Shown piece by piece: positions 9,195 through 26,106 of a stretch of 26,106 nt of DNA. Location: the IMG/VR virus record IMGVR_UViG_3300046758_000350, positions 1 to 26,106 of that record. One strand, 5' to 3'. The notes under the pieces are model-generated. The model was not told the DNA's origin, made no database searches, and saw nothing but the letters and a program-made list of their open reading frames with translations. This DNA comes from a virus. The position numbers were made by a program, and so were the translations under genes. Each line of letters opens with the position of its first letter. The first letter of the stretch is position 1.

Positions 9195-9215
9195 TTATAT
9201 ACAAAGGAAAAGAGC

Positions 9216-10112
9216 ATGGTTAACCAGATAATTTCGGCATATAGATACAATGTTTTATTTGAAGCTATTGAAAACGTTTTAGGAGTACCTTCGGGAGATT
9301 CTGGATATAACCAAACAGTTGAAAGTCAAAGATTACCTAAGACTAGAATAGTTTATGCAGAAGATATGAATAAACTATACAATGATTATGTAGCTGTATA
9401 TGCACACCAAAATGGCACTTTGCCAGCTACTATTAGTACTGTAACTGATCAAAATGAAATTACCGAAACTCTATATGTTGCATACGAAACACTTTATCCT
9501 TTGCTTTTTGCTAATAGATTTGATGTAGATTCATCTCAAATTACAGGTGAACCTGCAGGTATAGATAGTTCTAGACAAAGCAGATGGGGCGGTACTGGTA
9601 CACCGCAATCAATTACTCATGAATTTTCCGTTACATTTGCAGAGCAAAATAATTTAAACGCATTTTTTAACGCCGGCGGCAATATAGAAATGTCATTTAC
9701 AATGACCTCAGTTGGCGCAGATGATAAATCTCAAGGCTGGGAAACTATGTTATCAAATATTGGCAACGTGACAATAGATTACACTGGTACACAAGTTACT
9801 GGTTCTGGCTCAGCTCAAAGCAATACTGGAATATATGATTTAACAACATCCTATACAAAAATTTATGAAAAGTTAGGTAGTGGAATTTATACTAATAATG
9901 ATTTAGAAATATTTGCTCGTAAAGATGCAAATGTAATTTATTTTAAAATAGTATTACTTGATGAATCTGTTGGTACAGATCCTGATGGCGCTGGACCAAT
10001 TGACGAAGTAGTAAATGGTAATATAACTAGCTATGTTAGACAAAATAGACCAACTGGCAGTTATGTTGAAGTGCCAACACCTTCATACAACAATATTACT
10101 GTCTTCGAATAA
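9216..10112 (+). CDS. Virion structural protein, paralogue of the 11112-12170 product
   Basis: The ATG at 9216 is preceded by AAAGGAAAAG. The product has 298 residues. Its C-terminal half aligns by eye with that of the gene at 11112: 'W.TM.SN.G', 'LTT.YTKI', 'GSIY/GIYTN.D.IE' and '(D)GDTGTGDP/VGTDPDGAGP.DE.V..N'. Near residues 150-200 it has NLNAFFNAGGNIEMSFTMTS, which looks like a beta-sandwich virion protein. No signal peptide, membrane segment or enzyme motif is present. It lies at the end of the fibre gene run, and its 3' end overlaps the end of a radical SAM gene on the other strand by 30 bp. Structural role likely; position in the virion unknown. Confidence 0.6.
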   Translation: MVNQIISAYRYNVLFEAIENVLGVPSGDSGYNQTVESQRLPKTRIVYAEDMNKLYNDYVAVYAHQNGTLPATISTVTDQNEITETLYVAYETLYPLLFANRFDVDSSQITGEPAGIDSSRQSRWGGTGTPQSITHEFSVTFAEQNNLNAFFNAGGNIEMSFTMTSVGADDKSQGWETMLSNIGNVTIDYTGTQVTGSGSAQSNTGIYDLTTSYTKIYEKLGSGIYTNNDLEIFARKDANVIYFKIVLLDESVGTDPDGAGPIDEVVNGNITSYVRQNRPTGSYVEVPTPSYNNITVFE

Positions 10113-11045
10113 TTTACCATTATAATTTTTTATTTTTTTAGTTGTTAAGTCTGTTAAACAACTACAATATTCGTATTGACATTTTATAGGTAGATACGGA
10201 ATATCAAAATCTAAATTGTGTATACTACCTAATACAAAATTAGGAAAGCACTGGCTACCGATTGTAACATTGCCTTCTCTAGTGATATTAAGTGTGTCTA
10301 TGCCAATCCAACACGCCCAGTTTTTAAATTTATTCTTTTTTTCTAATAATAATTTTTGTAAGTTAACAGGATTTTTATTTTCGTCAACCATTGTTACGCC
10401 GTAATTATCTTTTTTTACTCCATCTAATTTTACAAAGGATTTCATAGTTTCTATTTGTGTTTTAGTGTAAGGCATAGATTCGGCTTGGTCCAAACTAATA
10501 CGTAGAGGTTTATAATCTAATCTAATGTATTTGTGTAAATTTGCAAAACAATAATCGTATTGTTCAACTGCTAAATCAAAATTTTCTATGTCCATGCATA
10601 TTTGAAAATGTATATCAAAGTAACCTGCACACGCATTAAATTTTTCTACTAATTCAACTATATCTACTTGTGCTACATGAACACTAACAACTACACTATC
10701 AATATTATTTTTATTACGTAGCCACCATTTTTTTGTTTTGTTGCCGTTTGTAAGCAATTGTACTTTATTTTTTATATTTGCTTTTTTTACATATTCAAAA
10801 AAGTTTGGTATTTGTCTCCATATAGTCGGCTCGCCACCAAATAAATTATATACAGCAAACTTATCTGTATATGTTTTAGTAATTTTATCTACTAGTAGTT
10901 TTGCGTTATCTATGGTAGGAAAGTCAAATTTACCATCATGTGCAGCAGGTTCACAGTATGCACAAGCATAGTTGCATCTACTACTCATATCCCAATCTAT
11001 GTAAACAAAATCACGTGACTTTTGATATTCAAAGCGTTGCATCAT
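10083..11045 (-). CDS. Radical SAM enzyme with C-terminal SPASM/twitch-like cysteines
   Basis: I chose the ATG at 11045, giving 320 aa; an upstream GTG at 11069 extends the frame by 8 residues but has no clear ribosome site. The [4Fe-4S] motif is CX3CX2C (CNYACAYC, C24, C28, C31), and the SAM-binding motif is GGEPT at 70-74. A C-terminal region has five cysteines in a SPASM/twitch style: C245 (CWIGIDTLNITREGNV), C266, C289, C294 and C296. Such regions hold auxiliary iron-sulphur clusters in enzymes that modify peptides or proteins. It stands alone on the - strand between two paralogous virion genes on the + strand, like an inserted accessory gene. The radical SAM identity is certain; the substrate is unknown. 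Peptide or protein modification is inferred from the auxiliary cysteines. Confidence 0.88.
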   Translation of the reverse strand: MMQRFEYQKSRDFVYIDWDMSSRCNYACAYCEPAAHDGKFDFPTIDNAKLLVDKITKTYTDKFAVYNLFGGEPTIWRQIPNFFEYVKKANIKNKVQLLTNGNKTKKWWLRNKNNIDSVVVSVHVAQVDIVELVEKFNACAGYFDIHFQICMDIENFDLAVEQYDYCFANLHKYIRLDYKPLRISLDQAESMPYTKTQIETMKSFVKLDGVKKDNYGVTMVDENKNPVNLQKLLLEKKNKFKNWACWIGIDTLNITREGNVTIGSQCFPNFVLGSIHNLDFDIPYLPIKCQYEYCSCLTDLTTKKIKNYNGKLFEDSNIVV

Positions 11046-11057
11046 GTATTTAACCAC

Positions 11058-11087
11058 TTGACAAAACACAGATAAATAAGTTATACT
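11058..11087 (+). promoter_or_regulatory. Sigma70-like promoter (TTGACA-18-TATACT) with nested late motif
   Basis: TTGACA at 11058-11063 and TATACT at 11082-11087 are separated by 18 bp. Between them, GATAAATA (11071-11078) matches the late NATAAATA motif. Either could drive the structural gene at 11112, whose ribosome site GGTGGAG lies at 11099-11105. The overlap could give transcription in both phases. Confidence 0.55.
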
Positions 11088-11111
11088 ATAAAAAAGTAGG
11101 TGGAGATAATT

Positions 11112-12170
11112 ATGGCCGTAGGCAGTTCGATTAGTGCAGCAGATTTCAATAATATTAGATCAATATTATTGAACAATTTTGGACCAGGTCAATATGGGTT
11201 TGCATCCGGAACTGGTGCTAATGACATTCCTAATAGTGTAACAGGAGGCAACGATATTGCTACTAGCGATAGTGTATTGTCAGCAGATGTTGAAAGATTA
11301 TTCAGTGTAGGTCAGCTTATACACTATCATCAAAACGGAGCTATAAAAACAATATCAAGCGGAACTACATATCCTGGTTTACAAACTGGTCAAGTAATTG
11401 AATGGGCAGATTGGGGTGATGCTGGGGATGTTAAAGGATTATATGATCTTGCAAATTCATGTGCAAGTTTTGATAGACGTACAACAGAATTCGGAGGCGA
11501 TTTTAGCACAGTTGTAGCAGACTTAGACGAAGTAGATGTGTTATGGCAAAATATTTCAGGCGGTTGTGTTTATACTTGGTCGTCTGAAGATTTATATTAT
11601 GAATATTGGACCACTGGTGGAGAATTACGTGTAAATATTGATATTGATGCTATTGGTAGTGTAGGACAGGCTAGTTATGAAAAAAACTTAAACTGGCAAA
11701 CAATGGCATCAAATATGGGTACAATAAGATTATATGCTCGTCCTGATTCTGCAGGTACCGGATGGGAATGGGTAGTAGAAAGTTTAAGTAACAGTGGAAC
11801 AGGGTCAGTTACAGCAGTCTCTGAACTTACTGATGCTATAGCTTTAACCACTAAGTATACAAAAATTGGCGCAGGTTCTATTTATAACGATAACTCAATT
11901 GAAGTTCAAATGGCAGTTATTAATGGATCTAACCGTGTAACACTAAACGTAGTAATGACAGACGGCGACACTGGTACAGGTGATCCTGCAGACGGACCTC
12001 AAAGTACTCCGATTGATGAACCTGTTTCTGCTAATGTAAATATTTCTTGCACTCAATACTATCCTGATAGTACTATTACTCTAAATGACGGTACAACAGA
12101 TACTGACTTTTCTTTAGGTGGTAATGGAATTAGACCTGGGCAAAATAGAAACCAGCCTAGTGTAACTTAA
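11112..12170 (+). CDS. Virion structural protein, paralogue of the 9216-10112 product
   Basis: I chose the ATG at 11112 (352 aa) because GGTGGAG sits 6 nt upstream; a GTG at 11100 lies within that ribosome site. The N-terminus (MAVGSSISAADFNNIRSILL) looks like an alpha-helical lead. The rest is beta-rich, with aromatic pairs (YYEYWTTGGELRVNIDIDA) and a C-terminal half like that of the 9216 gene (NWQTMASNMG, LTTKYTKIG, TPIDEPVSANVNIS). The tail end TDTDFSLGGNGIRPGQNRNQ is glycine- and asparagine-rich. It is separated from its paralogue by an inverted radical SAM gene. It is most likely a late virion component; the exact site is unknown. Confidence 0.6.
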   Translation: MAVGSSISAADFNNIRSILLNNFGPGQYGFASGTGANDIPNSVTGGNDIATSDSVLSADVERLFSVGQLIHYHQNGAIKTISSGTTYPGLQTGQVIEWADWGDAGDVKGLYDLANSCASFDRRTTEFGGDFSTVVADLDEVDVLWQNISGGCVYTWSSEDLYYEYWTTGGELRVNIDIDAIGSVGQASYEKNLNWQTMASNMGTIRLYARPDSAGTGWEWVVESLSNSGTGSVTAVSELTDAIALTTKYTKIGAGSIYNDNSIEVQMAVINGSNRVTLNVVMTDGDTGTGDPADGPQSTPIDEPVSANVNISCTQYYPDSTITLNDGTTDTDFSLGGNGIRPGQNRNQPSVT

Positions 12171-12181
12171 TCATATATCGG

Positions 12182-12227
12182 TTGACAATTATCTAACAAT
12201 AATATATACTAGCAGTATATATGGAGG
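12182..12227 (+). promoter_or_regulatory. Strong sigma70-type promoter and ribosome site of the modification operon
   Basis: TTGACA at 12182-12187 and TATACT at 12205-12210 are separated by exactly 17 bp. GGAGG at 12223-12227 lies 6 nt before the ATG at 12234. The -35 is perfect and the -10 differs from TATAAT by one base. No late motif is present, so host polymerase is likely to read this operon, probably early. All downstream genes to 17770 abut or overlap. Confidence 0.75.
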
Positions 12228-12233
12228 TTTTTT

Positions 12234-12581
12234 ATGGACGAGCGGCTTGAAAAAGCATTAGATATTAGTAACTATATGGTTACATTAAACAATCAAACAC
12301 GCATTTTAAAAGAAAAGTATTACGAAAATCTTGTGTACTATTTTAACGGCGCAACCTTTACAGTATCGCGAGAGTTGATTAATTTTATCAAAAGTTTAAT
12401 CGATAGTGATCAACAGTCTGTAATTATCAGCGACGATAATGATATTCCTGCTGAGATTGCAAATTTAGAAGAGTTTTATCAAAATATTTTAAATACATAT
12501 TTTACAGCATCTAATGAATACTTTGTCGAATACAACAAAATAAAAAGCAAAAGAAGTGTTGAAGGTATACTAGATTTATGA
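12234..12581 (+). CDS. Conserved-looking hypothetical protein, 115 aa
   Basis: This is the first gene after the strong promoter, with a clear GGAGG site. The product is mostly alpha-helical and acidic: an N-terminal helix (MDERLEKALDISNYMVTLNN), a central YYFNGATFTVSRELINFIKSL, and a C-terminal helix rich in tyrosine and asparagine. There is no cysteine, no signal peptide and no membrane segment. I recall proteins of similar size and opening next to fibre genes in T4-like marine phages, but cannot confirm this. The gene ends in an ATGA overlap with the first glycosyltransferase-like gene, so it is translated with it. Function unknown. Confidence 0.6.
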   Translation: MDERLEKALDISNYMVTLNNQTRILKEKYYENLVYYFNGATFTVSRELINFIKSLIDSDQQSVIISDDNDIPAEIANLEEFYQNILNTYFTASNEYFVEYNKIKSKRSVEGILDL

Positions 12582-13402
12582 GTAAAGGCGTTTTACTTTT
12601 TGCCAAAAAAAACAAAGCATTAGATTATATTAAACAAGCTATATATTGTGCAGAACGTATTAAAAAGTATTTAGATGTTCCGGTTGCAATTGCTACTGAT
12701 ATGACAGATGATTCACGTATTGATTTTTTTGAGCATGTTATTAAATTAGAACCTAGTGTATCTGAAAATAGTCGAAAGTTTCGCGATGGTAATATGGCTT
12801 CTTCGATGTCAAATTTTAATAATGCTGATAGATATAATGCATATGATTTATCACCGTTTGACGAAACTATTGTAATGGACACTGATTTTATACTTGCCAA
12901 CGATAGTTTAAAAAACTGCTTTGGATCTAATCAAAATCTAATGATGTATAGTAATGCTGTAGATTTGTGTCATTGGAGAAAGTTAACAGAATTTGATAGG
13001 GTAACTGATACAAGTATAAAATTTTATTGGGCCACGGTTGTTTACTTTAAAAAGTGCAAGCAAGCACAATGTTTCTTTGACTTAGTAAAACATGTTAGAG
13101 AAAATTATACACACTATAAAAGTCTATATCAAATAATATCTCCTTTGTATAGAAACGATTTTGCTTTTAGTATTGCTGCTCACACATTAAATGGGTTTAC
13201 AGATGAACTAAAAATAGCTTCGCTTCCGGGTAAGAAATACTTTATTACAGATAGAGACATTGTTGATAATATAGACAATGATACAATGTTATTTCTTATA
13301 GAAAAACAATCACATATAGGACAGTATACGGGCTTAAAAACAAACAAGCAAAATGTTCATATTATGAATAAAATAAGTTTAGAGAGAATTATTAATGGAT
13401 AA
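12578..13402 (+). CDS. GT-A-fold glycosyltransferase-like protein (first of pair)
   Basis: The product has 274 aa and starts in an ATGA overlap. A Rossmann-like opening (GVLLFAKKNKALDYIKQA) leads to the DxD-type motif VMDTD (DTD at 101-103), the Mn/nucleotide-sugar site of GT-A enzymes such as the GT8 family. The C-terminal half is less typical and rich in aromatic residues. It resembles the next gene over the first 120 residues (VLLFAKK/TLLAQNS, YIKQA/YVKQA, MDTD), suggesting duplication. It likely transfers a sugar in the cytoplasm, to a fibre protein, glycan or small acceptor; the acceptor cannot be inferred. Some phage proteins of this type could be inactive relatives. Confidence in the fold is good; activity is inference. 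Confidence 0.7.
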   Translation: MSKGVLLFAKKNKALDYIKQAIYCAERIKKYLDVPVAIATDMTDDSRIDFFEHVIKLEPSVSENSRKFRDGNMASSMSNFNNADRYNAYDLSPFDETIVMDTDFILANDSLKNCFGSNQNLMMYSNAVDLCHWRKLTEFDRVTDTSIKFYWATVVYFKKCKQAQCFFDLVKHVRENYTHYKSLYQIISPLYRNDFAFSIAAHTLNGFTDELKIASLPGKKYFITDRDIVDNIDNDTMLFLIEKQSHIGQYTGLKTNKQNVHIMNKISLERIING

Positions 13403-14234
13403 AAATTTTACTTTGCTTGCTCAAAACAGCAACGATGACTATGTAAAACAAGCATGTTTGTGTGCAATGAGTATACATGCTACAAATCCAGACAGTAATG
13501 TTTCTTTAATTACCAATGATGCTGTACCAGAAAAATATAAACAGTTATTTGATCATATTGTAGAAATACCTTGGAAAGATCATGCCAAGGACGAAGACTG
13601 GAAAATTAGTAATCGTTGGAAAATATATCATGCTACTCCTTATGCTGACACGTTAGTAATGGATACAGATATGTTGGTATTGCAAGATTTAAGTAAATGG
13701 TTTGCCTTTTTAAACAATTACGATTTATATTATACCAGCAACGTTTTAACGTATAGAGGAGAAACTGTAACTAGTGATTATTATAGGAAAGCATTTACAC
13801 AATTTAATTTACCAAATTTATATAGTGGTATACATTATTTTAAGGAACGTCCATTAGCAAAAGAATTTTATACTTGGCTAGAGATGATTACAAATAACTG
13901 GCAATTGTTTTATAAAAATCATGCTGGTGGCAAAACATATCAAAAAACATGTAGCATGGATTTAAGTGCAGCAATAGCAGCAAAAATATTAAATTGCGAG
14001 CATAGTATTACAAGTAAGACAGAATTTCCTACATTTGTACACATGAAATCAAAATTACAACATTGGGAAAAATATGATGAACAAAAATGGCAAACTAGAG
14101 TAAGTAGTTACCTTGATGATAATTTAGATCTATATGTAGGAAATTACAAACAAAGCGGCGTGTTTCATTATACAGAAAAAGATTTTGCTAACAATAATAT
14201 AATTAGCACATATGAAAAATATTTAGGAATATAA
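13395..14234 (+). CDS. GT-A-fold glycosyltransferase-like protein (second of pair)
   Basis: The ATG at 13395 overlaps the preceding stop by 8 nt (ATGGATAA). The product has 279 aa. It opens NFTLLAQNSNDDYVKQACLC, has NRWKIYHATPYADTLVMDTDMLV (a basic and aromatic helix before the DxD motif, DTD at 90-92) and YSGIHYFKERPLAKEFY near 150. These match the layout of nucleotide-diphospho-sugar glycosyltransferases of GT8 type, where a lysine or arginine before the DxD helps bind the nucleotide. A histidine near the end (FVHMKSKLQHW) could complete the metal site. It is paralogous to the upstream gene. Donor and acceptor are unknown. Confidence 0.72.
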   Translation: MDKNFTLLAQNSNDDYVKQACLCAMSIHATNPDSNVSLITNDAVPEKYKQLFDHIVEIPWKDHAKDEDWKISNRWKIYHATPYADTLVMDTDMLVLQDLSKWFAFLNNYDLYYTSNVLTYRGETVTSDYYRKAFTQFNLPNLYSGIHYFKERPLAKEFYTWLEMITNNWQLFYKNHAGGKTYQKTCSMDLSAAIAAKILNCEHSITSKTEFPTFVHMKSKLQHWEKYDEQKWQTRVSSYLDDNLDLYVGNYKQSGVFHYTEKDFANNNIISTYEKYLGI

Positions 14235-14235
14235 G

Positions 14236-14796
14236 ATGCCAATAGTAGTTAGAAGCAATACGAAAAAATATATTGAGTTTGCCGATAATGGGCGTATATT
14301 ATCAATTAAAAATACACCTAGTAGTGATCAATACATTACTGTAGATTCATTTGAAGTACAAGACTTATTAAAAGGAATAATTCCTTCAAATGAATATACT
14401 GTAGAATATGATTTAGTTGCAAAAGACTATGTATTAAAACATAGTACTTACTGGACTGAAGCACGGTCGAGTGATAGTTTTTTATACAAAATTGAAAATG
14501 ACAACGAACCTGATCTAACAATTGTTCAAGATAACGTACAGAAAAAATGGCAAATTAAACTTAGTGAACAGTTAATTAAAACAATTGAAGAAAAAAATGT
14601 TAGTTTGGATCACATGATATCTAATTTTAGTGTCACAAAGAAAAATAATCCTTATTATTTGTATTGTATGCTAAATTTTAAAGAAGATACTTTCACTATT
14701 GATTTCCAAGACAACTTTGAGTTTGACAAAGAGCCAATTAGCGTTTATACTGTAAAAAAGTTTGGATCTTACGCACACGAGGTAATAAATGACTGA
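14236..14796 (+). CDS. Hypothetical protein, 186 aa
   Basis: The start is one base after the previous stop. The protein is beta-rich and acidic, opening MPIVVRSNTKKYIEFADNG, with KKNNPYYLYCMLNFKEDTFTIDF near 135-158. It contains a single cysteine and no signal, membrane or catalytic motif. It lies between the glycosyltransferase pair and a DGD-motif protein and ends 8 nt inside the next gene, so it belongs to the same co-translated operon. It may be a binding or adaptor protein for the modification pathway, but that is only context. Function unknown. Confidence 0.55.
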   Translation: MPIVVRSNTKKYIEFADNGRILSIKNTPSSDQYITVDSFEVQDLLKGIIPSNEYTVEYDLVAKDYVLKHSTYWTEARSSDSFLYKIENDNEPDLTIVQDNVQKKWQIKLSEQLIKTIEEKNVSLDHMISNFSVTKKNNPYYLYCMLNFKEDTFTIDFQDNFEFDKEPISVYTVKKFGSYAHEVIND

Positions 14797-15709
14797 TAAT
14801 ATTTTTAGAGTAGTAGACCATGACATAATTTACTTGTCATATGATGAACCTAATGCAGAACAGAATTATGCTGATTTGCTAACAAAAGTTCCATGGGCTA
14901 AACGGGTGCATGGAGTTGAAGGAAGTGATGCAGCACACAAAGCTGCTGCTAATATGAGTGACACAGATCGATTTATTACTATTGACGGTGATAACAGAAT
15001 ACGTGAAACTTTTTTAAGTCAAGAAGCAGATTTGAGTGACTACGACTTAACCGACAAAGTTATTAGTTGGACAGCGTTAAATCAAATAAATGGTTTGACG
15101 TACGGCAATGGTGGTATCAAATGTTGGCCTAAAGAAAAAGTACTTAGTATGCGTACACATGAAAATGCTGATCCTGACAATCCACATGCACAAGTAGACT
15201 TTTGTTGGGACTTACAATACATACAAATGAACGGAACGTTTAGCGATATTTACAATAATGCTACACCTCATCAAGCGTGGCGTGCTGGTTTTCGTGAAGG
15301 TGTTAAAATGGCACTCGATCAAGGCATTAGACCCGATATAGAAGATTTCAAACGTAACCATTGGAAAAATTTACATAGACTATGGATTTGGTTAATGGTA
15401 GGTGCTGATGCCGAAAACGGACGTTGGGCAGTATACGGTGCTAGAGAAGGCTTATACAAAACAATGTGTACAGATTGGGACTTTGTAAATGTACGTGACT
15501 TTGAATGGCTTAATCAGTATTGGGAATCGTTAGAAGTAACCGAAGAAACACTTGAACAAGAAACTGAACGTTTGGGCGACGAATTAATAAGCGAGCTACA
15601 AGCACCAATAGATCAAGAACCTCTTAGAGCAGGACAAAGCACATTTTTTAAAACAGTTTATCAAAATCCAGTAAGAAATCCTAAGTTTATTGATAAGGAA
15701 CTAAAATGA
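14789..15709 (+). CDS. DGD-motif glycosyltransferase-like protein
   Basis: GAGG at 14779-14782 precedes the ATG. The product has 306 aa. Its core motifs are IIYLSYDEPNAEQNYADL (13-30), AKRVHGV (37-43), a helix with AAHKAA (48-53), FITIDGDN (DGD at 66-68) and NGLTYGNGGIKCWPKE near residues 105-120. The end has GAREGLY and DFEWLNQYW. The same set recurs in the gene at 23137. I recall this family as widespread in marine T4-like phages, often annotated hypothetical or glycosyltransferase. The DGD and the strand order suit a GT-A fold, with DGD as metal/nucleotide-sugar site. The assignment as transferase is inference. Confidence 0.65.
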   Translation: MTDNIFRVVDHDIIYLSYDEPNAEQNYADLLTKVPWAKRVHGVEGSDAAHKAAANMSDTDRFITIDGDNRIRETFLSQEADLSDYDLTDKVISWTALNQINGLTYGNGGIKCWPKEKVLSMRTHENADPDNPHAQVDFCWDLQYIQMNGTFSDIYNNATPHQAWRAGFREGVKMALDQGIRPDIEDFKRNHWKNLHRLWIWLMVGADAENGRWAVYGAREGLYKTMCTDWDFVNVRDFEWLNQYWESLEVTEETLEQETERLGDELISELQAPIDQEPLRAGQSTFFKTVYQNPVRNPKFIDKELK

Positions 15710-17079: not shown

Positions 17080-17770
17080 ACAATTATTTGACGACTTACT
17101 ATACTTGCCTCTAGATATTGAAAATCCTCCATTAGATCATATGGATTATTTAAACAGTTTAGATTTTAGCAAAATATATCAAGACGAATATAGAAATTGT
17201 TGGCATGTGCCAGTTATGTATAATCCAACGGATAAAGATAAATTTCAATGGATGCCTTGGGCATTTGAAATGCCTAAACTAAAACAATGGTGCGAAGACG
17301 TACTATTCAAAATTACAAAACAACGTAGTAGAATAATGATTATTACTACACCTAATGATTATAAGAATCCATTACATATTGATTGTAGTCCTGAAATGTT
17401 TAACACATCGCAGCACAAGTTTAGATATGTTATGCAAGGTAATGTAGATGACTTGGACTTTATAGGAAAAGATACCAGTGTAACGCCAACTGCAATAGAT
17501 AAGCCATTTGTAATGAGCGGTAAATGGCCTCACGAGATGCACAACACATCAGGAGATACAAAATTTACTCTAGCATTAGGCGCACCATGGGACGGCAGTT
17601 ACACTGATCAAGATTATGTAAATTTATTAGATCAAAGTTATCAAAAGTTTGAGGATTATTATCTTGCTTCAGATTTTGAATTACCCAATAATTGGGAAGA
17701 CTTGTTTGAACAAAATCAGTATGAAAAACGCAAGAAGCAAGCAGATGAAATGTTAAGTAAGAACCGGTAG
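17072..17770 (+). CDS. 2OG-Fe(II) oxygenase-like protein
   Basis: I chose the ATG at 17072 (232 aa), 8 nt inside the previous gene (ATGGATAA), over an upstream ATG at 17042 that would overlap further. Candidate metal ligands are H102 and D104 (LHIDCSP) and H147 (WPHEMHN), with R118 and K154 as possible co-substrate contacts. The spacing HxD, about 43 residues, H, then K/R fits a cupin-type (double-stranded beta-helix) oxygenase, somewhat like aspartyl/asparaginyl hydroxylases. H144 is an alternative third ligand. It is last in the operon and its 3' end overlaps a convergent gene by 18 bp. It probably hydroxylates or oxidises the same target as the preceding radical SAM enzyme (inference). Confidence 0.65.
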   Translation: MDKQLFDDLLYLPLDIENPPLDHMDYLNSLDFSKIYQDEYRNCWHVPVMYNPTDKDKFQWMPWAFEMPKLKQWCEDVLFKITKQRSRIMIITTPNDYKNPLHIDCSPEMFNTSQHKFRYVMQGNVDDLDFIGKDTSVTPTAIDKPFVMSGKWPHEMHNTSGDTKFTLALGAPWDGSYTDQDYVNLLDQSYQKFEDYYLASDFELPNNWEDLFEQNQYEKRKKQADEMLSKNR

Positions 17771-19433: not shown

Positions 19434-20079
19434 TTAATCTCTCCTTGGTTCTAAACAACCATGTAAAATAATATTCTAATTGTTTTTCATTTCGCAGTCC
19501 GTCAATCTGTTCAACCGCATCAATATAATTATCTGGCTTTAAAAAATCTGCAAGATCGATTGAAAAATCAGTATCTAGTTGAAAAGAGTATGGAACCATT
19601 TTTTCCCATTTGTCTTTATTCATCTGATATCTTACATTCATTCCTACATTGTATTTTTCTTTATCTGTTTCGGTAGATAAGCCAGAATAATATGTAATTA
19701 CATTTTCTAATACTAGATCACGTGTGTTAGGAGTATATGTAATTCCTACAGTAGTCGCATCACTACCAAAATGTTTTTTAATTAGTCTTGCTTGTTTGCT
19801 TGAAAAATTACCAATCCATACTTTTTTATCTCCAGCATTACTAAGAACTGCTTCAATATCAGACAGGCGATCTGTCCAATCGATATTTCTAAATTGCATT
19901 GGATTATTGTTGGTTAAATCTAAAACATATTGTTCATGATTGTTGTGTATTAGATGTCCTGTATTGGTTATATCGGGTGTGCATGGTTGTACCCATTCGT
20001 CACTCCAACCTGCTAATGTATTAATAAAAACATCGCATACTGTTCCGTATGGACACACTCCAAAATATAATTTACTCAT
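19420..20079 (-). CDS. Hypothetical protein, 219 aa, first gene of a - strand operon
   Basis: The ATG at 20079 has no ribosome site; the promoter places the predicted transcript start at the ATG itself. The opening MSKLYFGVCPYGTVCDVFIN has two cysteines near the N-terminus. The middle has KKVWIGNFSSKQARLIKKHFG, VGITYTPNTRDLVLENVI and RYQMNKDKWEKMVPYSFQLDTDFSIDL. The alternating hydrophobic strands and helices suggest an alpha/beta fold. The layout recalls sulfotransferase-like phage proteins, but I see no PAPS-binding P-loop, so I do not assign it. It precedes the TauD-like gene with a 14-nt overlap, hinting at a shared substrate. Function unknown. Confidence 0.6.
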   Translation of the reverse strand: MSKLYFGVCPYGTVCDVFINTLAGWSDEWVQPCTPDITNTGHLIHNNHEQYVLDLTNNNPMQFRNIDWTDRLSDIEAVLSNAGDKKVWIGNFSSKQARLIKKHFGSDATTVGITYTPNTRDLVLENVITYYSGLSTETDKEKYNVGMNVRYQMNKDKWEKMVPYSFQLDTDFSIDLADFLKPDNYIDAVEQIDGLRNEKQLEYYFTWLFRTKERLNENK

Positions 20080-20114
20080 GCTATTATAATAGCATAAAGA
20101 TTAGCTTATGTCAA
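20077..20114 (-). promoter_or_regulatory. Sigma70 promoter with predicted leaderless start
   Basis: On the - strand, TTGACA (20114-20109) and TATTAT (20091-20086) are separated by 17 bp, followed by 6 nt and then ATG (20079-20077). The predicted +1 therefore falls on the ATG, and no Shine-Dalgarno sequence is present. The -35 lies in the last codons of the upstream fibre gene. The promoter drives the - operon 20079 to 17753. Confidence 0.65.
20078..20095. repeat. Perfect 18-bp palindrome over a -10 element and start codon
   Basis: ATGCTATTATAATAGCAT is its own reverse complement. It covers the -10 element of the - strand promoter and two bases of the ATG of the gene ending at 20079. It could be an operator, or an extruding hairpin at the 5' end of a short mRNA leader. 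It is not followed by a T-run, so it is not a terminator. Confidence 0.6.
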
Positions 20115-21378
20115 CCCACATACTGCCATTATATCCTTGGAATTTATTTGTACTATTGTTGAAAATAATCATACCTGCTTGGGCGTCTAAATCATTACGT
20201 TGTGTACTGTTGATAGGGTGTGCTTGAAATGCATATCCGCCAACTGTACCTTGGTGGTTTACACTTAATCTTTTTGGTCCTATTATATCTGGTGGATTTG
20301 TTCCGTCGGCTACACTTACACCAAATAGTGTTCTAATACTGCCTGTATTTGATATTGTTGATTCTGGATCTGCAATATAACCCCATGCTCCTGCTTGTGC
20401 ATAATCGGTTCCGTTATGAGCTAATATTGCTTTAAAGTCTAATATTTCGCCAGGTGCTATACTTGCTTTTTCTCCGTTGCTTACTCTATGAAAATGCGCA
20501 CGTTGTCCTGCTAAATTTGTTGAATGAGGAACAACTATAAAATCGTTCTTTTCTCTAAAGTTATTAACTAATGTAGTATCAGCAAGTTCTGGACCAGTTG
20601 ATATTGTGGTAATGTTTGGACTGCCGCCGATAGATATTATACCATTGTCTGAAATAGATAATCCTATATGGGACTCATTTCTAACCATACCTTCTAAATC
20701 GCCAACAACATTGCCCTCGACATTACCGGTGTGTGTACCAGTTGTGTCACCTAAAACATCACCGACAACATTGCCAAAATGCTCACCGGTTGTGTTTCCA
20801 AAAACATCACCTTCGACATTGCCAATTAAATTACCTGTAACATTACCAGTCAAGTCACCTGTTACATCGCCAAACACTTCTCCATAATGTTGACCAGAGA
20901 CATCGCCTAACAGAGTGCCATATAATTGCCCGATAGTTGCTGTAGCTGAAGTTAAGTCAGTAACAGTGAGATCGTTTTGTAAAACAATGTTTTGTACAGT
21001 AACAGTATCTATTGTTAGTGTACGATTAGTGGCATCCAATATAACATTTTCTTGATCGTCAATTACGTCACCTTGTAAATTGCCTGTGACATCTCCAAAC
21101 ACTTCCCCAACTAAGTCGCCTGTGACATCTCCTATAAACACAGCATCAGCACCTGTGCTACCTGGATTTAAAACAACAGCGCCGTTACTAGCTGTAACAT
21201 TCCCAGCCAATACTCCGTCGAGTTTTCCTAATAGTACGTTGTTTGCAGTATCGACTAATGTTGAATTGTCACTGCCTACTACAGGACCTCTAATTGAACT
21301 ACTCCAGCTATCTACTAGAACAGAGCTATCGCTGCCTGTAATTGTTAATCTTACTGTGTCACCAGGTATTATACTCAT
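20101..21378 (-). CDS. Tail fibre-like protein with period-4 glycine repeats
   Basis: The ATG at 21378 has GGAGA upstream and a GATAAATA late motif 16 nt away. The product has 425 aa. Residues 154-230 have a glycine at every fourth position, 20 in a row (G154, G158 up to G230), with units such as GDVT, GNVE, GNVV. A shorter run spans 83-103. Such tetrapeptide repeats form extended shafts in phage fibres. The C-terminal part, about residues 250-425, looks globular and ends in the fibre-tip motif NKFQGYNGSMWVDIS near 411-425, common in T4-like marine phages. It stands alone among accessory genes on the - strand. Its start overlaps the radical SAM stop by 4 bp. Most likely a fibre or fibre tip. 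Confidence 0.75.
   Translation of the reverse strand: MSIIPGDTVRLTITGSDSSVLVDSWSSSIRGPVVGSDNSTLVDTANNVLLGKLDGVLAGNVTASNGAVVLNPGSTGADAVFIGDVTGDLVGEVFGDVTGNLQGDVIDDQENVILDATNRTLTIDTVTVQNIVLQNDLTVTDLTSATATIGQLYGTLLGDVSGQHYGEVFGDVTGDLTGNVTGNLIGNVEGDVFGNTTGEHFGNVVGDVLGDTTGTHTGNVEGNVVGDLEGMVRNESHIGLSISDNGIISIGGSPNITTISTGPELADTTLVNNFREKNDFIVVPHSTNLAGQRAHFHRVSNGEKASIAPGEILDFKAILAHNGTDYAQAGAWGYIADPESTISNTGSIRTLFGVSVADGTNPPDIIGPKRLSVNHQGTVGGYAFQAHPINSTQRNDLDAQAGMIIFNNSTNKFQGYNGSMWVDIS
20689..20919 (-). repeat. Degenerate 12-bp tandem repeat coding the glycine-period-4 shaft
   Basis: Twenty imperfect copies of a 12-bp unit encode residues 154-230 of the fibre, each unit one glycine codon plus three variable codons (typically GGN-A/GAY-GTN-NNN). 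A second block of six glycine repeats lies at about 21070-21132. The glycine period is exact with no slip across the block, which suggests functional constraint on the register. Confidence 0.7.
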
Positions 21379-22997
21379 GTTTGTCTCCTACACTTATTTA
21401 TCAGAAGTTTTTGTAGATATTGTTCTTTCATATCTCTGCGTTGGTTTATAGCATCTACTATAAATTTAGGGTCATTTGTTTGTGCTCTATATGTTTCTTC
21501 TTTGTTATACCCTAAATTTTTAATTCTATTATACTGTACAAATCCAGCAAGTGTAAATTTTTTGTGTGCATTTCGTGGATCATAATAGAATTGTTCTACA
21601 AGTTGGTCTGCTTCTTGTGCTGTCATATATGGAGATGTCCATTCAAACCAATTCATGTCGTTTTCGTTATGCTGGATGTCGTATTTTTGAGAGTCGTCTT
21701 CAATTTTACTAGTAGCATTATATTGCCACCCGTCTACTGATTTTTTAAATCCATATTTAAACATATCATAATCGCTTATGTGTAATGGGTTTATCCCTCT
21801 ATTAAATTGTTTAATATATAATCTATTATATGCAATAACATGTAACGGTACATCGGGCCTATGTAGCCACTCCATTGTATCTAAAACACTTTCTTTACTT
21901 TCTTTTGGTAATCCAATAATAAAATTGGCCCCTGTGTAAACATCGTCCTTCCATGCGTCTTTTAATTCATAGAGAAACTCTTTTAACATTTGAGGATCTG
22001 CACCCTTGCCTATAGCTTTTCCAGCTTCCTGATTAAATGTTTCAATACCAAAGTTGGCAGTGACTAGTCCCATTTCGTGCAAAAGAGGAATCATTTCACG
22101 CTGGGCAGCAATAACATCTAAACGTAAGAATCCGCTAATATTAATTTTGAAAGGTAAACTGGTAATTACTTCGTGCAAATATTTTATTTTTGTTAAACTG
22201 TCGTTCATTGTATCGTCACTAACCATATAACCGGTCGTGCCGAAATGTTCATAGTTATACATAAGTTCGTCTCTTAATGTATCACCGTTTTTAGTATAAT
22301 CTCCAAACTTCTTTCCATTTAGATTAAAAGCACAGAACGCACATTTAAAAATACATCCCCTAGCAGTTTCAATTGGTAATTCTTCATTTGGAAAAATATG
22401 ATCTGATTTGTGCCATACAATTTTACTATCATTAAATCCTGCAAAGTCGTACATCTTATCTGTAATTACGTTGCTGTTTTCCATTTCGATAACTTTAAGT
22501 TTGTCGCCAAATTTTAAGTGCTTTGATAATGCAATGGAAGATGCATCACCTTGTCCTAATATCCAATAGTCTACATTCTCAGTACTTTCTAATAATGCTT
22601 TATAGCCGCCAACAACAATTTTAGTTTTGGGATTTGTTTCTTTAATTTTTTTAAAAAACCCTTGCGTCTGTTCTTCTGTATGAGGCCAGAGCGTATGCCA
22701 AATTTCACCTAGTTGCGAAAGTGCGCCCATAGGAGGAGTAAGCCATACTTTTAGTTGTTCTTTGAAAGAAAGATGCTTACCGTACAACGTTGTTGCAAAC
22801 CCTACCCAAAGAGTTTCGTCTGTAACACATGATTCTATTACCTGTTCGACTTCTTCAACTTCCATGTCACCATAAAATTCAACAACTTGAACAGTAAACC
22901 CGTTGTCTCTCAAGTCTGTTGCTAATCTATATGGTCCTGCGTATCTTCCAAATCCTAATGGTCCGTTACAATCATTAAATATGATTATTTCTGACAT
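21375..22997 (-). CDS. B12-type (class B-like) radical SAM protein lacking DxHxxG
   Basis: AAGGAAAT precedes the ATG. The product has 540 aa. Residues 1 to about 165 resemble a cobalamin-binding Rossmann domain (GRYAGPYRLATDLRDNG near 17-33, VVGGYKALL near 128-136, YWILGQGDASSIALSKHL near 144-161), but the cobalt-contacting DxHxxG motif is absent. The radical SAM motif is CIFKCAFC (C215, C219, C222) after ETARG, as in class B and BchE-type enzymes. Later GIETFNQEAGKAIGKG and FIIGLPKES match the core of this family. Class B enzymes often methylate unactivated carbons or form rings on peptides or lipids; with DxHxxG missing, B12 may bind base-off without it, or not at all. Substrate unknown. 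A late motif for the fibre gene lies in its 3' end. Confidence 0.85.
   Translation of the reverse strand: MSEIIIFNDCNGPLGFGRYAGPYRLATDLRDNGFTVQVVEFYGDMEVEEVEQVIESCVTDETLWVGFATTLYGKHLSFKEQLKVWLTPPMGALSQLGEIWHTLWPHTEEQTQGFFKKIKETNPKTKIVVGGYKALLESTENVDYWILGQGDASSIALSKHLKFGDKLKVIEMENSNVITDKMYDFAGFNDSKIVWHKSDHIFPNEELPIETARGCIFKCAFCAFNLNGKKFGDYTKNGDTLRDELMYNYEHFGTTGYMVSDDTMNDSLTKIKYLHEVITSLPFKINISGFLRLDVIAAQREMIPLLHEMGLVTANFGIETFNQEAGKAIGKGADPQMLKEFLYELKDAWKDDVYTGANFIIGLPKESKESVLDTMEWLHRPDVPLHVIAYNRLYIKQFNRGINPLHISDYDMFKYGFKKSVDGWQYNATSKIEDDSQKYDIQHNENDMNWFEWTSPYMTAQEADQLVEQFYYDPRNAHKKFTLAGFVQYNRIKNLGYNKEETYRAQTNDPKFIVDAINQRRDMKEQYLQKLLINKCRRQT
21395..21402 (-). promoter_or_regulatory. Late-promoter-like motif GATAAATA inside a radical SAM gene
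   Basis: On the - strand, GATAAATA lies 16 nt before the ATG of the fibre gene (21378), inside the 3' coding end of the radical SAM gene. This lets the fibre be made late even though it follows the enzyme gene. Same motif form as at 11071. Confidence 0.5.
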
Positions 22998-23052
22998 ATA
23001 ATTTCCTTAACTTTATCAAAAGTTGCTACTTGATCTTGGAATGTAATCCTAA

Positions 23053-23081
23053 ATATTATCCTAGGCTTATCATTATGTAAA
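23053..23081 (-). promoter_or_regulatory. Possible sigma70-like promoter for the B12-type radical SAM gene
   Basis: On the - strand, TTTACA (23081-23076) and TAATAT (23058-23053) are separated by 17 bp, giving a leader of about 50 nt to the ATG at 22997. The -10 matches TATAAT in four of six bases. A GATAAATA late-type motif lies further upstream at 23085-23092 (-). Which one is used is unclear. Confidence 0.35.
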
Positions 23082-23096
23082 AAATATTTATCATTA
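23067..23096. repeat. Pair of 9-bp direct repeats, TTATCATTA, 21 bp apart
   Basis: TTATCATTA occurs at 23067-23075 and 23088-23096, start to start 21 bp, about two helical turns, between divergent genes. It could be a binding site for a dimeric regulator. In AT-rich DNA a chance match is possible. Confidence 0.3.
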
Positions 23097-23101
23097 AATA
23101 G

Positions 23102-23139
23102 TTGACAGGAACACGGATCTGTGTAATAATTAGTTTATG
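23102..23139 (+). promoter_or_regulatory. Sigma70-like promoter with predicted leaderless start
   Basis: TTGACA at 23102-23107, a 17-bp spacer and AATAAT at 23125-23130 are followed by 6 nt and the ATG at 23137. As at 20079, the predicted +1 is the A of the ATG, and no ribosome site is visible. It drives the + operon running to the right edge. Confidence 0.6.
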
Positions 23140-24168
23140 TATGATATATATTTTATTGGATCAAATGATCATCCTCAGTACCTAAAGTTAAAACAAAAAT
23201 TTATAATTGCTAAAACGGCAGAATCCGTTGTTTCAGCAAAGGCACAATCGAATACAAAGATGTTATGGATTGTATATCCGGAAGTAGAACTCAATAATGA
23301 TTGGGATTTTACATACACATCTAAGCCGGCTGATATAGAGTATACACACGTATTTTTAAATGGTAAAAATTACGACGGTGTTGCACTTATGCCAAAAGGA
23401 AGCCATCACGGGCCAGGAGAGCTTGCTGCTAGATTTTATATTAACAAAAAGTTTACAGATATTTCTGCAAGCACACCAATAAGTGAAACAAGTGATATAG
23501 TTTTCATCAGCTATCAAGAGCCAAACGCAGATGAAAATTATCAAAATTTGTTAGAAAGATTTCCACGAGCTAAACGGGTACATGGAGTAAAAGGAATACA
23601 CCAGGCACACATTGAAGCTGCAAAACTTTGTACATCTGACAGAGTCTGGATAGTTGACGGTGATGCTGAAATAGTTGATAACTTTAATTTTGACTATGTA
23701 CCTGAATGGTGGAATAGTAAAGCAGTACACGTTTGGCGCAGTATTAACCCGGTAAACGGTCTTGAATATGGATACGGCGGAGTAAAGTTGTTTCCAAGAG
23801 AAGAAACAATTAATATGGACACAAGTAAGCCTGATATGACCACAAGTATCAGTAACAAATTTGTAGCAATGATGAAAGTAAGCAACATTACTGGATTTAA
23901 CACTGATCCTTTTAATACATGGAAAAGTGCATTTAGAGAATGTGCAAAGCTAAGTAGTCGTGTAATAGACAGACAAAAAGATAACGAAACACAACAACGT
24001 CTTGTTACTTGGTGTACAAAAGGTACAGGAGACTTTGCTGATTATGCATTCCAAGGTGCAAAGTCAGGAGCAGTATTTGGTGCTCGTAGTAAACACAACA
24101 GTGAAGAATTAAAAAAGATTAATGACTTTGATTGGTTAGAGGAGAGATTTGGTAATGAATGTAAATAA
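23137..24168 (+). CDS. DGD-motif glycosyltransferase-like protein with N-terminal extension
   Basis: This is a 343-aa paralogue of the 14789 gene. The shared core is FISYQEPNADENYQNLLE (123-140), AKRVHGVKG (145-153), WIVDGDAEI (DGD at 174-176), NGLEYGYGGVKLFPRE near 209-224 and a C-terminal FDWLEERF. About 118 residues precede the core and are absent from the other copy: MYDIYFIGSNDHPQYLKLK, MLWIVYPEVEL and YDGVALMPKGSHHG, possibly a separate small domain. The family is common in marine T4-like phages. The GT-A-like role (metal at DGD) is inference. The start has no ribosome site (see the leaderless promoter). It overlaps the next gene by 14 nt. Confidence 0.7.
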   Translation: MYDIYFIGSNDHPQYLKLKQKFIIAKTAESVVSAKAQSNTKMLWIVYPEVELNNDWDFTYTSKPADIEYTHVFLNGKNYDGVALMPKGSHHGPGELAARFYINKKFTDISASTPISETSDIVFISYQEPNADENYQNLLERFPRAKRVHGVKGIHQAHIEAAKLCTSDRVWIVDGDAEIVDNFNFDYVPEWWNSKAVHVWRSINPVNGLEYGYGGVKLFPREETINMDTSKPDMTTSISNKFVAMMKVSNITGFNTDPFNTWKSAFRECAKLSSRVIDRQKDNETQQRLVTWCTKGTGDFADYAFQGAKSGAVFGARSKHNSEELKKINDFDWLEERFGNECK

Positions 24169-25042
24169 TGAAATTGCAGTAGATAATATAAGTTGGTTGC
24201 ATGGCCTACAAGAATATTTTGATTTTGTCAATGATAAAGAATCAAAAATGCTTGTTGATTTTTTCTTATCAATGATGTATTCAAAGGACAATATGATAAA
24301 TTTGTCATTGGATCTTAACATTGCAGAATTTTTACATTTTTTAAAGAAACAAACAACTAACGATATTTTTGATATATTTGACAAGTATTATAGAAATAAT
24401 TATAATCCTATTTTCCTACAAGATGCATTTAGTAGAGGGCAAGTAAATAGTAAAATATGGGCAATGGAAGAACTTGCAAAAATACAAAAAGAATTTGATA
24501 CTGTGTATGTACTCGGAGGATGGTACGGACAGATACGTTTGTTCCTTGAGCAAGTTATAGAATATAATAAAATGAGAGTGTTTGATGTTGATTCTGAAGC
24601 ATGTTACATTAGTGATAAGATTTTTAATGCACAGCGTATTGAAGGTTATAAAGTAAAATCTGTTGAAATGAAACTACCAATGGCAAGTAGCAGCGATTTA
24701 GATAAAAACATGGAATGGATCAGCAGAACAGGGTGTACTTATAATGTTAAAAATTATACAACTGACAAAGAAATATTTGAAAAAACACAACCAAGTTTAG
24801 TGTTTAATACAAGTGCCGAACACATGCCTAGTACGTGGTATCAAAAATTTGTGCATAGACCAATGGAAAGCGATCCATTGTTTGTTATTCAAAGTAATAA
24901 CTTGTTTGATGTTGAAGAACATGTAAATTGCGTACATAGTATAGATCATATGTGTAAAAAGTTTCCAATGGAGCGACTTGAATACGCTGGTGAACAAGAA
25001 TTATATGGATATAAAAGATTTATGGTTATAGGACGTCCATGA
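24155..25042 (+). CDS. Class I SAM-dependent methyltransferase-like protein
   Basis: I chose the ATG at 24155 (295 aa), with GGAGAG upstream; the frame opens with a TTG at 24149 that is unlikely to be used. The first 110 residues are helical. Then come VYVLGGWYGQ (117-126) as the glycine-rich motif I, VFDVDSEAC (142-150) as the acidic strand end that binds the SAM ribose, and SLVFNTSAEHM (214-224) at the motif IV site. The end LYGYKRFMVIGRP is a typical final beta-hairpin. The order suits a class I methyltransferase. The target could be a sugar, protein or small molecule. No target-recognition domain or DPPY motif of DNA adenine methyltransferases is seen. Confidence 0.68.
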   Translation: MNVNNEIAVDNISWLHGLQEYFDFVNDKESKMLVDFFLSMMYSKDNMINLSLDLNIAEFLHFLKKQTTNDIFDIFDKYYRNNYNPIFLQDAFSRGQVNSKIWAMEELAKIQKEFDTVYVLGGWYGQIRLFLEQVIEYNKMRVFDVDSEACYISDKIFNAQRIEGYKVKSVEMKLPMASSSDLDKNMEWISRTGCTYNVKNYTTDKEIFEKTQPSLVFNTSAEHMPSTWYQKFVHRPMESDPLFVIQSNNLFDVEEHVNCVHSIDHMCKKFPMERLEYAGEQELYGYKRFMVIGRP

Positions 25043-25263
25043 TAGATTTAGAAATATTAAGTTTAAGACAGTTACAAAAAGAAAGTGCAAGAGCTCTGAG
25101 TACAATGCAGGCTACAAATAATAATATTTGGCAATTTAATAAACAAGCACACCATAATAGTCAACAATGGTATAAAGCTGTAATCAAATGGTATATTGAG
25201 GAATACGGTGATTTGCCAAGTCAAACTGGCCCAGGCAAAAAGGTAAAGTTGGTGATAGAATGA
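25039..25263 (+). CDS. Small hypothetical protein, 74 aa
   Basis: It starts in an ATGA overlap with the methyltransferase-like gene and ends in a similar overlap with the next gene. It is helical and glutamine- and asparagine-rich (LRQLQKESARALSTMQATNN), with aromatic WQFNKQ and WYKAVIKWYIEEYGDLP, and a basic tail (GPGKKVKLVIE). No cysteine, signal or membrane segment. Tight coupling suggests it is translated with both neighbours. Function unknown; it could be a small adaptor. Confidence 0.55.
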   Translation: MIDLEILSLRQLQKESARALSTMQATNNNIWQFNKQAHHNSQQWYKAVIKWYIEEYGDLPSQTGPGKKVKLVIE

Positions 25264-25610
25264 AATTTACACAACCTTTAAAAATTTATTTATTCAAAGA
25301 TCAAAATCGAGTAGATGTTAGTGTAAAGATAAATGAAACTTTAGTAAATGGTTATAGATTTACAATATCTGACTTTGAAAAAATAATTGATAATTGGCAA
25401 ACTGGCATAGAGTTTGAATTTGAAGGCGGTTATGCAGTTATTGAATATAAAAAACACGGACCTAGACCTGAGCGTAAGTTAGATCCGTATGTGCGTTTTA
25501 GTATAAGTATAGGATACGGTACATTTCATCATAGACTTACCTATAATGATATGTTACAATTAGAAAAAGAATACTTCTATCAAAAGAATAATAAAATGTA
25601 TTGGGACTAG
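25260..25610 (+). CDS. Hypothetical protein, 116 aa
   Basis: Its ATG overlaps the previous stop. The protein is beta-rich: LKIYLFKDQNRVDVSVKI, then EFEFEGGYAVIEYKKHG, a basic and proline stretch PRPERKLDP, and VRFSISIGYGTFHHRLTYND. The length and strand pattern suggest a small beta-barrel or sandwich. There is no catalytic motif. It precedes the fourth radical SAM gene with a 2-nt gap, so a partner role (for example substrate presentation) is possible but not shown. Confidence 0.55.
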   Translation: MKFTQPLKIYLFKDQNRVDVSVKINETLVNGYRFTISDFEKIIDNWQTGIEFEFEGGYAVIEYKKHGPRPERKLDPYVRFSISIGYGTFHHRLTYNDMLQLEKEYFYQKNNKMYWD

Positions 25611-25612
25611 GA

Positions 25613-26106
25613 ATGTATAGTTATAGTGATGTTAGAACAGTTCATTTAGAGATTACACAAAAATGTCAAGCAGCATGTCCTATGTGTGATAGAAACATGA
25701 ATGGCGGAGCAGACAATCCTCATATTACAAATGCAGAATTAAGTTTAGAAGATTGCAAACGTATCTTTAAACCCGAATTTATTGCACAGTTAAAAACAAT
25801 GTTCATGTGCGGTAACTTAGGCGATCCTATTGTTGCTAAAGACACATTAGAAGTTTTTCGTTACTTTAGAGAACACAATCCTAATATGTGGCTCTCAATG
25901 AATACAAACGCAGGAGCAAAAGATGAAGCGTGGTGGAGTGAACTTGCCCAAGTCTTTGGTAGAATGGGTGCTGTTATTTTCAGCGTGGATGGTCTTAGTG
26001 ACACTAATCATTTATACAGGCAGAATGTTGTCTGGGATAATGTAGAACGTAATATGCGAGCATTTATAAATGCCGGCGGCAGAGCTCGTTGGGATTATAT
26101 TATATT
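25613..26106 (+). CDS. Radical SAM protein (3' partial)
   Basis: The ATG at 25613 follows the previous stop by 2 nt, with AGGA just upstream, and the frame is open to the right edge (164 codons seen). The translation opens MYSYSDVRTVHLEITQKC and holds the radical SAM motif CQAACPMC (C18, C22, C25), followed by DRNMNGG. Then come FMCGNLGDPIVAKDTLEVF, a variant of the GGEP region with GNLGDP, and LSMNTNAGA and VIFSVDGLSD, which match the core strands of the family. The C-terminal part, where auxiliary clusters would be, is missing. This is the fourth radical SAM gene in 16 kb. Substrate unknown. Confidence 0.85.
   Translation, partial: MYSYSDVRTVHLEITQKCQAACPMCDRNMNGGADNPHITNAELSLEDCKRIFKPEFIAQLKTMFMCGNLGDPIVAKDTLEVFRYFREHNPNMWLSMNTNAGAKDEAWWSELAQVFGRMGAVIFSVDGLSDTNHLYRQNVVWDNVERNMRAFINAGGRARWDYII

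Follow-up and report, generated by a model that had tools for sequence, protein, structure and literature searches.

Radical S-adenosylmethionine (rSAM) genes of T4-like marine phages have been reported without a settled purpose in the passages available from two earlier studies (PMC5332604, PMC7029224). One describes a T4-like marine genome of 183 kb, TARA_ERS488813_N000010, with 12 radical SAM genes (PMC5332604), and the other the host recognition cluster of pelagimyophages, a variable region with tail fibres, family 8 glycosyltransferases (GT8) and rSAM cassettes, for which modification of the host O-chain was suggested (PMC7029224); excerpts of a third report the prevalence of rSAM and glycosyltransferase genes in Tasman Sea viral data (PMC7150976). 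Here, we analyzed a 26,106-nucleotide stretch of viral DNA (hereafter, the window), which comprises positions 1–26,106 of the 26,106-base virus record IMGVR_UViG_3300046758_000350 and in which rSAM and glycosyltransferase (GT) genes follow tail-fibre genes. These genes keep their place and order next to the fibres in related phages, belong to rSAM arrays of far larger scale, and share an enzyme set with bacterial chromosomes of Bdellovibrionota. The window is best explained as one edge of a larger biosynthetic island, directly 3′ of the tail-fibre genes. We tentatively propose that this shared island may make a heavily modified glycan, which phage-specific GTs would attach to tail fibres or to the host surface.

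Gene order was compared around the tail-fibre-like gene at 7680–9191 (plus strand; PHROG tail fibre match, 1.8e-13), which was chosen as anchor because selection on rSAM genes was thereby avoided. Among the best 80 loci, the 43 with at least 9.9 kb downstream were counted and the 37 shorter ones left out; the 43 retain near-duplicates (e.g., L149/L150 and L198/L200). The order of fibre, 115-aa gene (12234–12581, plus strand) and three GT genes (12578–13402, 13395–14234 and 14789–15709, all plus strand) was found in 42 of these 43 loci, and a sequence similar to the rSAM gene at 15706–17079 (plus strand; rSAM2) starts no more than 150 bp from the third GT in 36. In 39 loci, sequence with some resemblance to a window rSAM protein lies within 10 kb, and a homolog of the conserved protein encoded after the fibres at 9216–10112 (plus strand), a presumed fibre or adhesin, stands 3′ of the anchor in 43/43. 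Gene content farther downstream of the core varies strongly between phages. The original prediction had proposed a joint pathway, to be doubted if related phages carried the genes scattered and independently of each other. Across related phages the core is kept together, and the joint pathway draws further support from the recurrence of its enzyme part, without fibres, in Bdellovibrionota chromosomes.

Support was found for all four predicted GT-like genes, although the proteins starting at 12578, 13395, 14789 and 23137 had no Pfam match even at E 10. The first two, which are phage-only, are GT8-like by their joint profile and DxD motif: all 19 PDB matches of the profile (up to E 1, best 1e-5) were glycogenins, over the first 105 profile positions only, and D90 and D92 were invariant in 18 sequences. 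The third, common to Bdellovibrionota islands, is GT-A-like according to its structure model (pLDDT 78), for which 13 of 13 PDB matches at E ≤ 0.001 were glycosyltransferases, yet with TM-scores of about 0.3. Structural neighbours of this predicted model were the O-antigen enzyme WrtF, the peptide S-glycosyltransferases SunS and ThuS, polypeptide GalNAc-transferases and a capsid-glycosylating chlorella virus enzyme. The fourth (23137–24168, plus strand) is a second member of the same family with an extra N-terminal part, its C-terminal part being 30% identical to the 14789 protein. The 115-aa protein of the core had no match among isolate phages and none in the 11 bacterial islands described below. 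A phage-only 186-aa protein (14236–14796, plus strand) is encoded between the GT8-like pair and the third GT and recurs in 23/43 loci; its fold had no PDB match at E ≤ 0.001, and three viral-model matches at that level, none with a named function.

A GTDB scan with an rSAM2 alignment led to bacterial counterparts. Among the 79 loci kept from 111 relatives, 61 carry titles of Bdellovibrio, Bdellovibrionales, Bacteriovorax, Halobacteriovorax or related groups. At E ≤ 1e-40, NF033640, the NCBIfam family of rSAM2, was found in 41/144 genomes in the phylum of the Bdellovibrionota centre, in 3/299 in the phylum of a metagenome-assembled genome (MAG) titled Alphaproteobacteria, in 2/198 in that of a MAG titled Flavobacteriales and in 0/14 control genomes; the phylum counts include their own centre genome, and the 144-genome count includes three genomes from the rSAM2 scan. 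Ten scan-derived genomes contained 5–33 matches each at E ≤ 0.001, many of them packed into tight arrays. The 14789-type GT family was present in 10 of the 144 phylum genomes, and, as a raw proportion, 13 of the 17 family matches that reached E ≤ 1e-40 lay within 10 kb of rSAM genes, with several adjoining genes of the types found at 24149–25042 (plus strand) and 25601–26106 (plus strand; rSAM4). Three weaker hits among the 20 for this GT, which all come from G152 and range from E 4e-26 to 1e-12, do not enter the count. Among the 17, L345 adjoins a truncated open reading frame (ORF) read by eye as rSAM, L341 lies 10.7 kb from the nearest rSAM gene near a contig end, and L343 and L346 have none.

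In the 11 islands compared, which were selected by GT or rSAM2-type matches, the N-twitch-type (rSAM2-type) rSAM occurred in 11, the 14789-type GT in 10, the rSAM4-type in 9 and the 24149-type in 8, and the window contains all four markers. This joint recurrence, together with the fixed order of the core in phages, argues against a pile-up of unrelated auxiliary metabolic genes in a variable region, an explanation we consider improbable even though composition past the core differs strongly between phages and variable host-recognition regions have been described in passages on pelagimyophages (PMC7029224).

The island of genome G132 (contig 34) lies between genes read as EF-Tu and as secE/nusG, ribosomal-protein and rpoB, and the same contig carries, by reading, gyrase, dnaN and recF genes. 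It encodes homologs of seven window genes, namely those starting at 14789 (39%), 17042 (28%), 18345 (29%), 21375 (35%), 23137 (41%), 24149 (33%) and 25601 (50%), and the homolog of the B12-type rSAM protein at 21375 aligned over 539 of 540 residues. Matches in G132 covered only 83 residues of the rSAM protein at 10083–11069 (rSAM1) and reached 22% at best for rSAM2, and this island had no homolog of 1–3183, the fibre genes, 3209, 9216, 11100, the 115-aa gene, 12578, 13395, 14236, 17753, 19420, 20101 or 25260. The GT8-like pair was likewise not found in the bacterial islands searched. Because G132 matches enzymes and not the fibres, 115-aa gene or GT8-like genes, we divide the system into two layers, one of shared enzymes and one confined to phages.

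When four phage arrays were compared with bacterial loci at E ≤ 1e-8, all 64 rSAM-motif genes were matched, as were 29 of the 109 remaining genes. The first of these numbers carries little weight because the bacterial loci were chosen by rSAM2 similarity, whereas the high identities of the best full-length rSAM pairs (60–67%) do carry weight. As to the direction of transfer, a tree of one rSAM family with 8 sequences placed the phages on one side of a supported branch; a tree with 13 sequences, which has long branches and is unsure, did not. The bacterial loci compared with the phage arrays exclude L229–L232, L262, L266 and L293, which are certainly or probably contigs of phages: fibre or cassette genes of phage type are present on L232, L262, L266 and L293, and L229, L230 and L231 have rSAM hits only. 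The four contigs with a phage fibre and GT cassette inside bacterial MAGs, two of which (L262 and L266) belong to a Neomarinimicrobiota MAG, look like mis-binned phage genomes; one phage-cassette contig in the bacterial MAG set is 335 kb long.

In two bacterial islands read with Pfam, GT2 genes and FAD oxidoreductases cleared the cut-off, and PMT-like or TMEM260-like membrane proteins matched without reaching it. Because the islands adjoin GT2 genes and weakly matching membrane transferases, a glycan or glycoconjugate product is favoured. Pairs of membrane-type proteins (~140–175 aa and 285–330 aa) were also seen by eye beside rSAM genes in L314, L340, L341, L342, L344 and L350; two pairs were scanned, with no Pfam match, and no family among them spans three or more islands.

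The same neighbours are consistent with the main rival explanation, in which the enzymes would remodel the envelope polysaccharide of the infected host (for example, as a superinfection block or receptor change) and leave the virion undecorated. Such remodelling was proposed for the GT8 enzymes of pelagimyophage host recognition clusters in the passages that describe them (PMC7029224), and in Vibrio phage K566 a gene annotated as PagP-like, for lipid A acylation, lies about 8 kb away from three annotated rSAM genes (L147:14839-25301). Two observations point away from it without being decisive: the core directly follows the fibres in 42/43 loci, and the GT8-like pair is absent from bacterial islands, as a phage acceptor would predict. 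We regard host-envelope remodelling as unlikely, though as the strongest of the competing explanations. Synthesis of a hypermodified DNA base would also draw on familiar enzymes, since phage DNA hypermodification involves glycosyltransferases and rSAM enzymes; with the island adjoining fibre genes and its enzyme layer standing in bacterial chromosomes with GT2 genes, this last explanation, at which no search for nucleotide-modifying genes was aimed, seems very improbable.

The window itself understates the scale of the arrays. Counted as PF04055 matches at E ≤ 0.001 per record, 20 long rSAM2-encoding records contain 1–21 rSAM genes each, with 20 in 97.8 kb (G003), 21 in 64 kb (G012) and a single gene in each of two records, and 17 records picked by fibre similarity and length contain 1–17, with 16 in 330 kb, 17 in 236 kb and 17 in 126 kb. 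Both sets were picked by length, the first also by rSAM2 similarity, and some records (e.g., G003 and G014) may be near-copies; one relatives set consists of the best 80 of 411 relatives. In the 55–98 kb region of G003, 20 of 43 ORFs have a CX3CX2C motif in proteins of at least 180 aa. Of the two isolates searched with PF04055, Vibrio phage 2.275.O has no match and K566 has six. The density of four rSAM genes that first drew attention to the window is thus real as a count and an underestimate as a scale.

Twenty proteins encoded between or next to the rSAM genes of G003 and G012 were scanned with Pfam, and seven reach a curated cut-off: asparagine synthase, nitroreductase, FkbM methyltransferase, AMP-binding, subtilase, Asp/Asn hydroxylase and tryptophan halogenase. 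The tryptophan halogenase-family gene (PF04820, E 2.6e-66) lies inside the rSAM array of G012 (L133:17672-19090). Supply of iron–sulfur clusters was considered as a common theme of the arrays and set aside: an A-type carrier (PF01521) was found in 2 of the 17 long phage records (G024:20278-20583 and G027:137113-137418), and such supply is therefore not general.

Tryptophan halogenases and Asp/Asn hydroxylases are known to act on peptides and proteins, and their presence in relatives is in line with the second-ranked rival, that rSAM enzymes modify proteins or peptides directly, with GTs adding sugars to these. The target would be residues of the fibres or a small precursor of the kind used for ribosomally synthesized and post-translationally modified peptides (RiPPs). 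SunS, ThuS and the polypeptide GalNAc-transferases among the neighbours of the 14789 model would also suit it. No precursor was identified, though no systematic search of small ORFs was made, none of the four window rSAM proteins matched a RiPP maturase family above cut-off, and the bacterial islands adjoin GT2 genes; we therefore judge direct protein or peptide modification to be distinctly unlikely.

All four rSAM genes of the window carry the predicted CX3CX2C motif and match PF04055, whose curated cut-off is reached by three of the four proteins, the exception being rSAM2 (24.7 of 29.5 bits). Their predicted differences in architecture were borne out for rSAM2 and for the partial rSAM4, and the B12-type assignment of rSAM3 is by similarity below cut-off only. 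The NF033640 family, 'twitch domain-containing radical SAM', includes rSAM2 at full length (E 3.7e-94, 316 bits against a cut-off of 170, profile 1–398 of 398), and Cys 23, 42, 84 and 87 in the N-terminal half of rSAM2 are invariant among 20 aligned sequences. NF033640 is a family name without a known reaction, and rSAM1, rSAM3 and rSAM4 fall under its cut-off or have no score. rSAM1 (10083–11069, minus strand; PF04055 3.8e-8) has direct relatives in 6 loci; it is a candidate SPASM-type protein by its C-terminal cysteines, read from the sequence at 247, 268, 291, 296 and 298. For rSAM3 (21375–22997, minus strand; PF04055 1.2e-15), the closest families are the B12-type PhpK (1.3e-20) and ladderane type (4.7e-18), both far under curated cut-offs, and the match to the B12-binding domain PF02310 is below its cut-off (E 0.0041, 17.4 of 32.1 bits). 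rSAM4 (PF04055 4.1e-8) is represented by its N-terminal part, cut by the window end; a close relative is 365 aa long, and further rSAM genes follow past the window end.

In the mechanism that we propose for the modified glycan, the shared layer would comprise the 14789/23137-type GTs, the 24149 protein, rSAM enzymes of more than one kind and a changing set of tailoring enzymes, all also found in Bdellovibrionota chromosomes, and the phage-only layer would comprise the fibres, the 115-aa gene, the two GT8-like GTs and the 186-aa gene. The shared layer might build a short glycan whose sugars would be modified step by step through radical, oxygenase and transfer chemistry. The GT8-like enzymes would start or anchor this glycan on a phage acceptor, and we propose the neighbouring fibres as the most likely one because the GT8-like pair follows them and was not found in bacterial islands. 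The decorated acceptor could change adsorption or shield the virion.

We infer the glycan product, the order of reactions, the fibre as acceptor and the benefit from gene comparison, and several observations weigh against this proposal. Neighbours of the 14789 model do not tell apart protein and glycan acceptors, and the asparagine synthase, AMP-binding and tryptophan halogenase genes of relatives would be consistent with a peptide or small molecule as the product, too. Four fibre-anchored loci (L175, L182, L192 and L204) have no detectable rSAM gene within 10 kb; the GT core is missing from L182 as well, and a single PF04055 match is present in the record of L204. Among the 11 bacterial islands, homologs of 17042, 18345 and 21375 occur only in G132, and fibre genes were recognised in none. 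Moreover, the TauD-family oxygenase of the window (18345–19433, minus strand; PF02668 4.3e-15) may stand outside the system because the cyanophage MED4-213 relative has no annotated rSAM gene beside it. In a tblastn search of 50,697 isolate phage records, this oxygenase matched six Prochlorococcus phage records (best 57%, P-HM2). Residues 142–144 of the window protein are His-Ser-Asn, with identical letters in the relatives of L008, L011, L013, L016, L086 and MED4-213; the family motif is His-x-Asp/Glu.

The other genes of the window divide into structural and putative enzyme genes. The window opens with the C-terminal part of a very long protein from the structural region (1–3183, plus strand), which has no PHROG match and matches ORFs of 4637, 4528 and 4592 aa in relatives, followed by a conserved 201-aa protein of phrog_11259, of unknown function (3209–3814, plus strand). 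Of the five or more virion genes predicted, tail or virion profiles support those at 3814–5814 (plus strand; tail-fibre-like, PHROG tail matches, best 3.4e-14) and 5814–7646 (plus strand; virion- or fibre-like, PHROG virion structural 8.2e-10) and the anchor gene, whereas no tail-protein profile matched the proteins starting at 9216, 11100 and 20101. The 11100–12170 gene (plus strand) is variable and presumed fibre-type. The 425-aa protein at 20101–21378 (minus strand), fibre-like by eye and without a profile match, has repeated Gly-Asp-Val-type stretches, lies between enzyme genes and has tblastn homologs in 84 of 97 sequences searched. Of two predicted oxygenases, the TauD-family protein is confirmed by its profile, whereas the protein at 17042–17770 (plus strand) is oxygenase-like by motif only (HxD at residue 101), with no significant family or PDB match and the 28% homolog in the G132 island. 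The labels GNAT-like, for a conserved 218-aa putative protein (17753–18409, minus strand), and methyltransferase-like, for the putative shared-layer partner at 24149–25042, which recurs in bacterial islands, were not upheld, as neither protein has a significant family or PDB match. The remaining two are proteins of unknown function, one of 219 aa (19420–20079, minus strand) and one, a phage protein, of 116 aa (25260–25610, plus strand), the latter with no counterpart in the G132 island.

A related 137-kb record encodes T4-type portal, capsid, prohead protease and baseplate genes, which place that record, rather than the window itself, in the T4 superfamily; its capsid protein shares 65–70% identity with those of large-genome phages, among them Vibrio phage 2.275.O, Sinorhizobium phage Phosso, PA5oct and Serratia phage BF. 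By these sequence comparisons, the lineage is an uncultivated one of the T4 superfamily, closest to large-genome phages. The array is located after the very long structural-region gene, which adjoins a gp6-type baseplate gene; a host recognition cluster is recognised by a VrlC-to-gp14 location. The labels 'Pelagimyophage' and 'moraphage', the latter from passages of PMC12619734, were not adopted for the lineage. Bdellovibrionota as host was considered and not established. A marine origin is suggested by the titles of MAGs in which related phage contigs occur and by the sources of the isolates. Cultured phages were dropped as a guide to the window enzymes, with nearly no matches among the 50,697 isolate records: megablast of 9201–26106 gave zero matches, as did tblastn of rSAM1, rSAM3, the 115-aa protein and the GTs at 13395, 14789 and 23137, and rSAM2 matched only Vibrio phages K566 and K567 (28.6%).

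A broader and more doubtful idea is that many N-twitch, SPASM-like and B12-type rSAM enzymes with a dedicated GT pair might form an unrecognised class of system common to Bdellovibrionota and large phages, in both decorating the surface that meets other cells (the bacterial envelope or the phage tail fibres) with a polymer of novel chemistry; predators and phages might exchange it because they engage the same Gram-negative surfaces, or because such phages infect the predators. We found no paper linking rSAM arrays to Bdellovibrionota in the titles and abstract starts of the papers listed from the PubMed Central open subset. A fibre-linked conserved system with a Bdellovibrionota enzyme layer gives orphan phage rSAM genes a common pathway that can be tested and that has counterparts in bacteria. 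Should the product prove to be a glycan, its modifications could be new and relevant to the contact of phages and predatory bacteria with the surfaces of bacteria.

Among described systems, the mosaic adhesive trimer fibres of Bdellovibrio are phage-tail-like and serve surface recognition according to passages of PMC10769870. They belong to the same phylum as the islands; a link is speculation, with no fibre gene recognised there. Among isolates, Vibrio phage K566 resembles the arrays in its PF04055 matches, three of them annotated close together; unlike the window lineage, K566 and K567 have no tblastn match for the 115-aa gene or three GT proteins. TARA_ERS488813_N000010, compared by description only, is T4-like with many rSAM genes, as is the window lineage; in the available passages the partners of its rSAM genes are iron–sulfur assembly genes (A-type carrier, grx and paaD), and fibre linkage, GTs and Bdellovibrionota do not appear there. 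From the pelagimyophage host recognition cluster, the window lineage differs in a capsid closest to those of large-genome phages, and in array scale and a bacterial counterpart, neither of which appears in the passages on that cluster. As described in these passages, this cluster resembles the window in combining fibres, GT8 enzymes and rSAM genes in one variable region.

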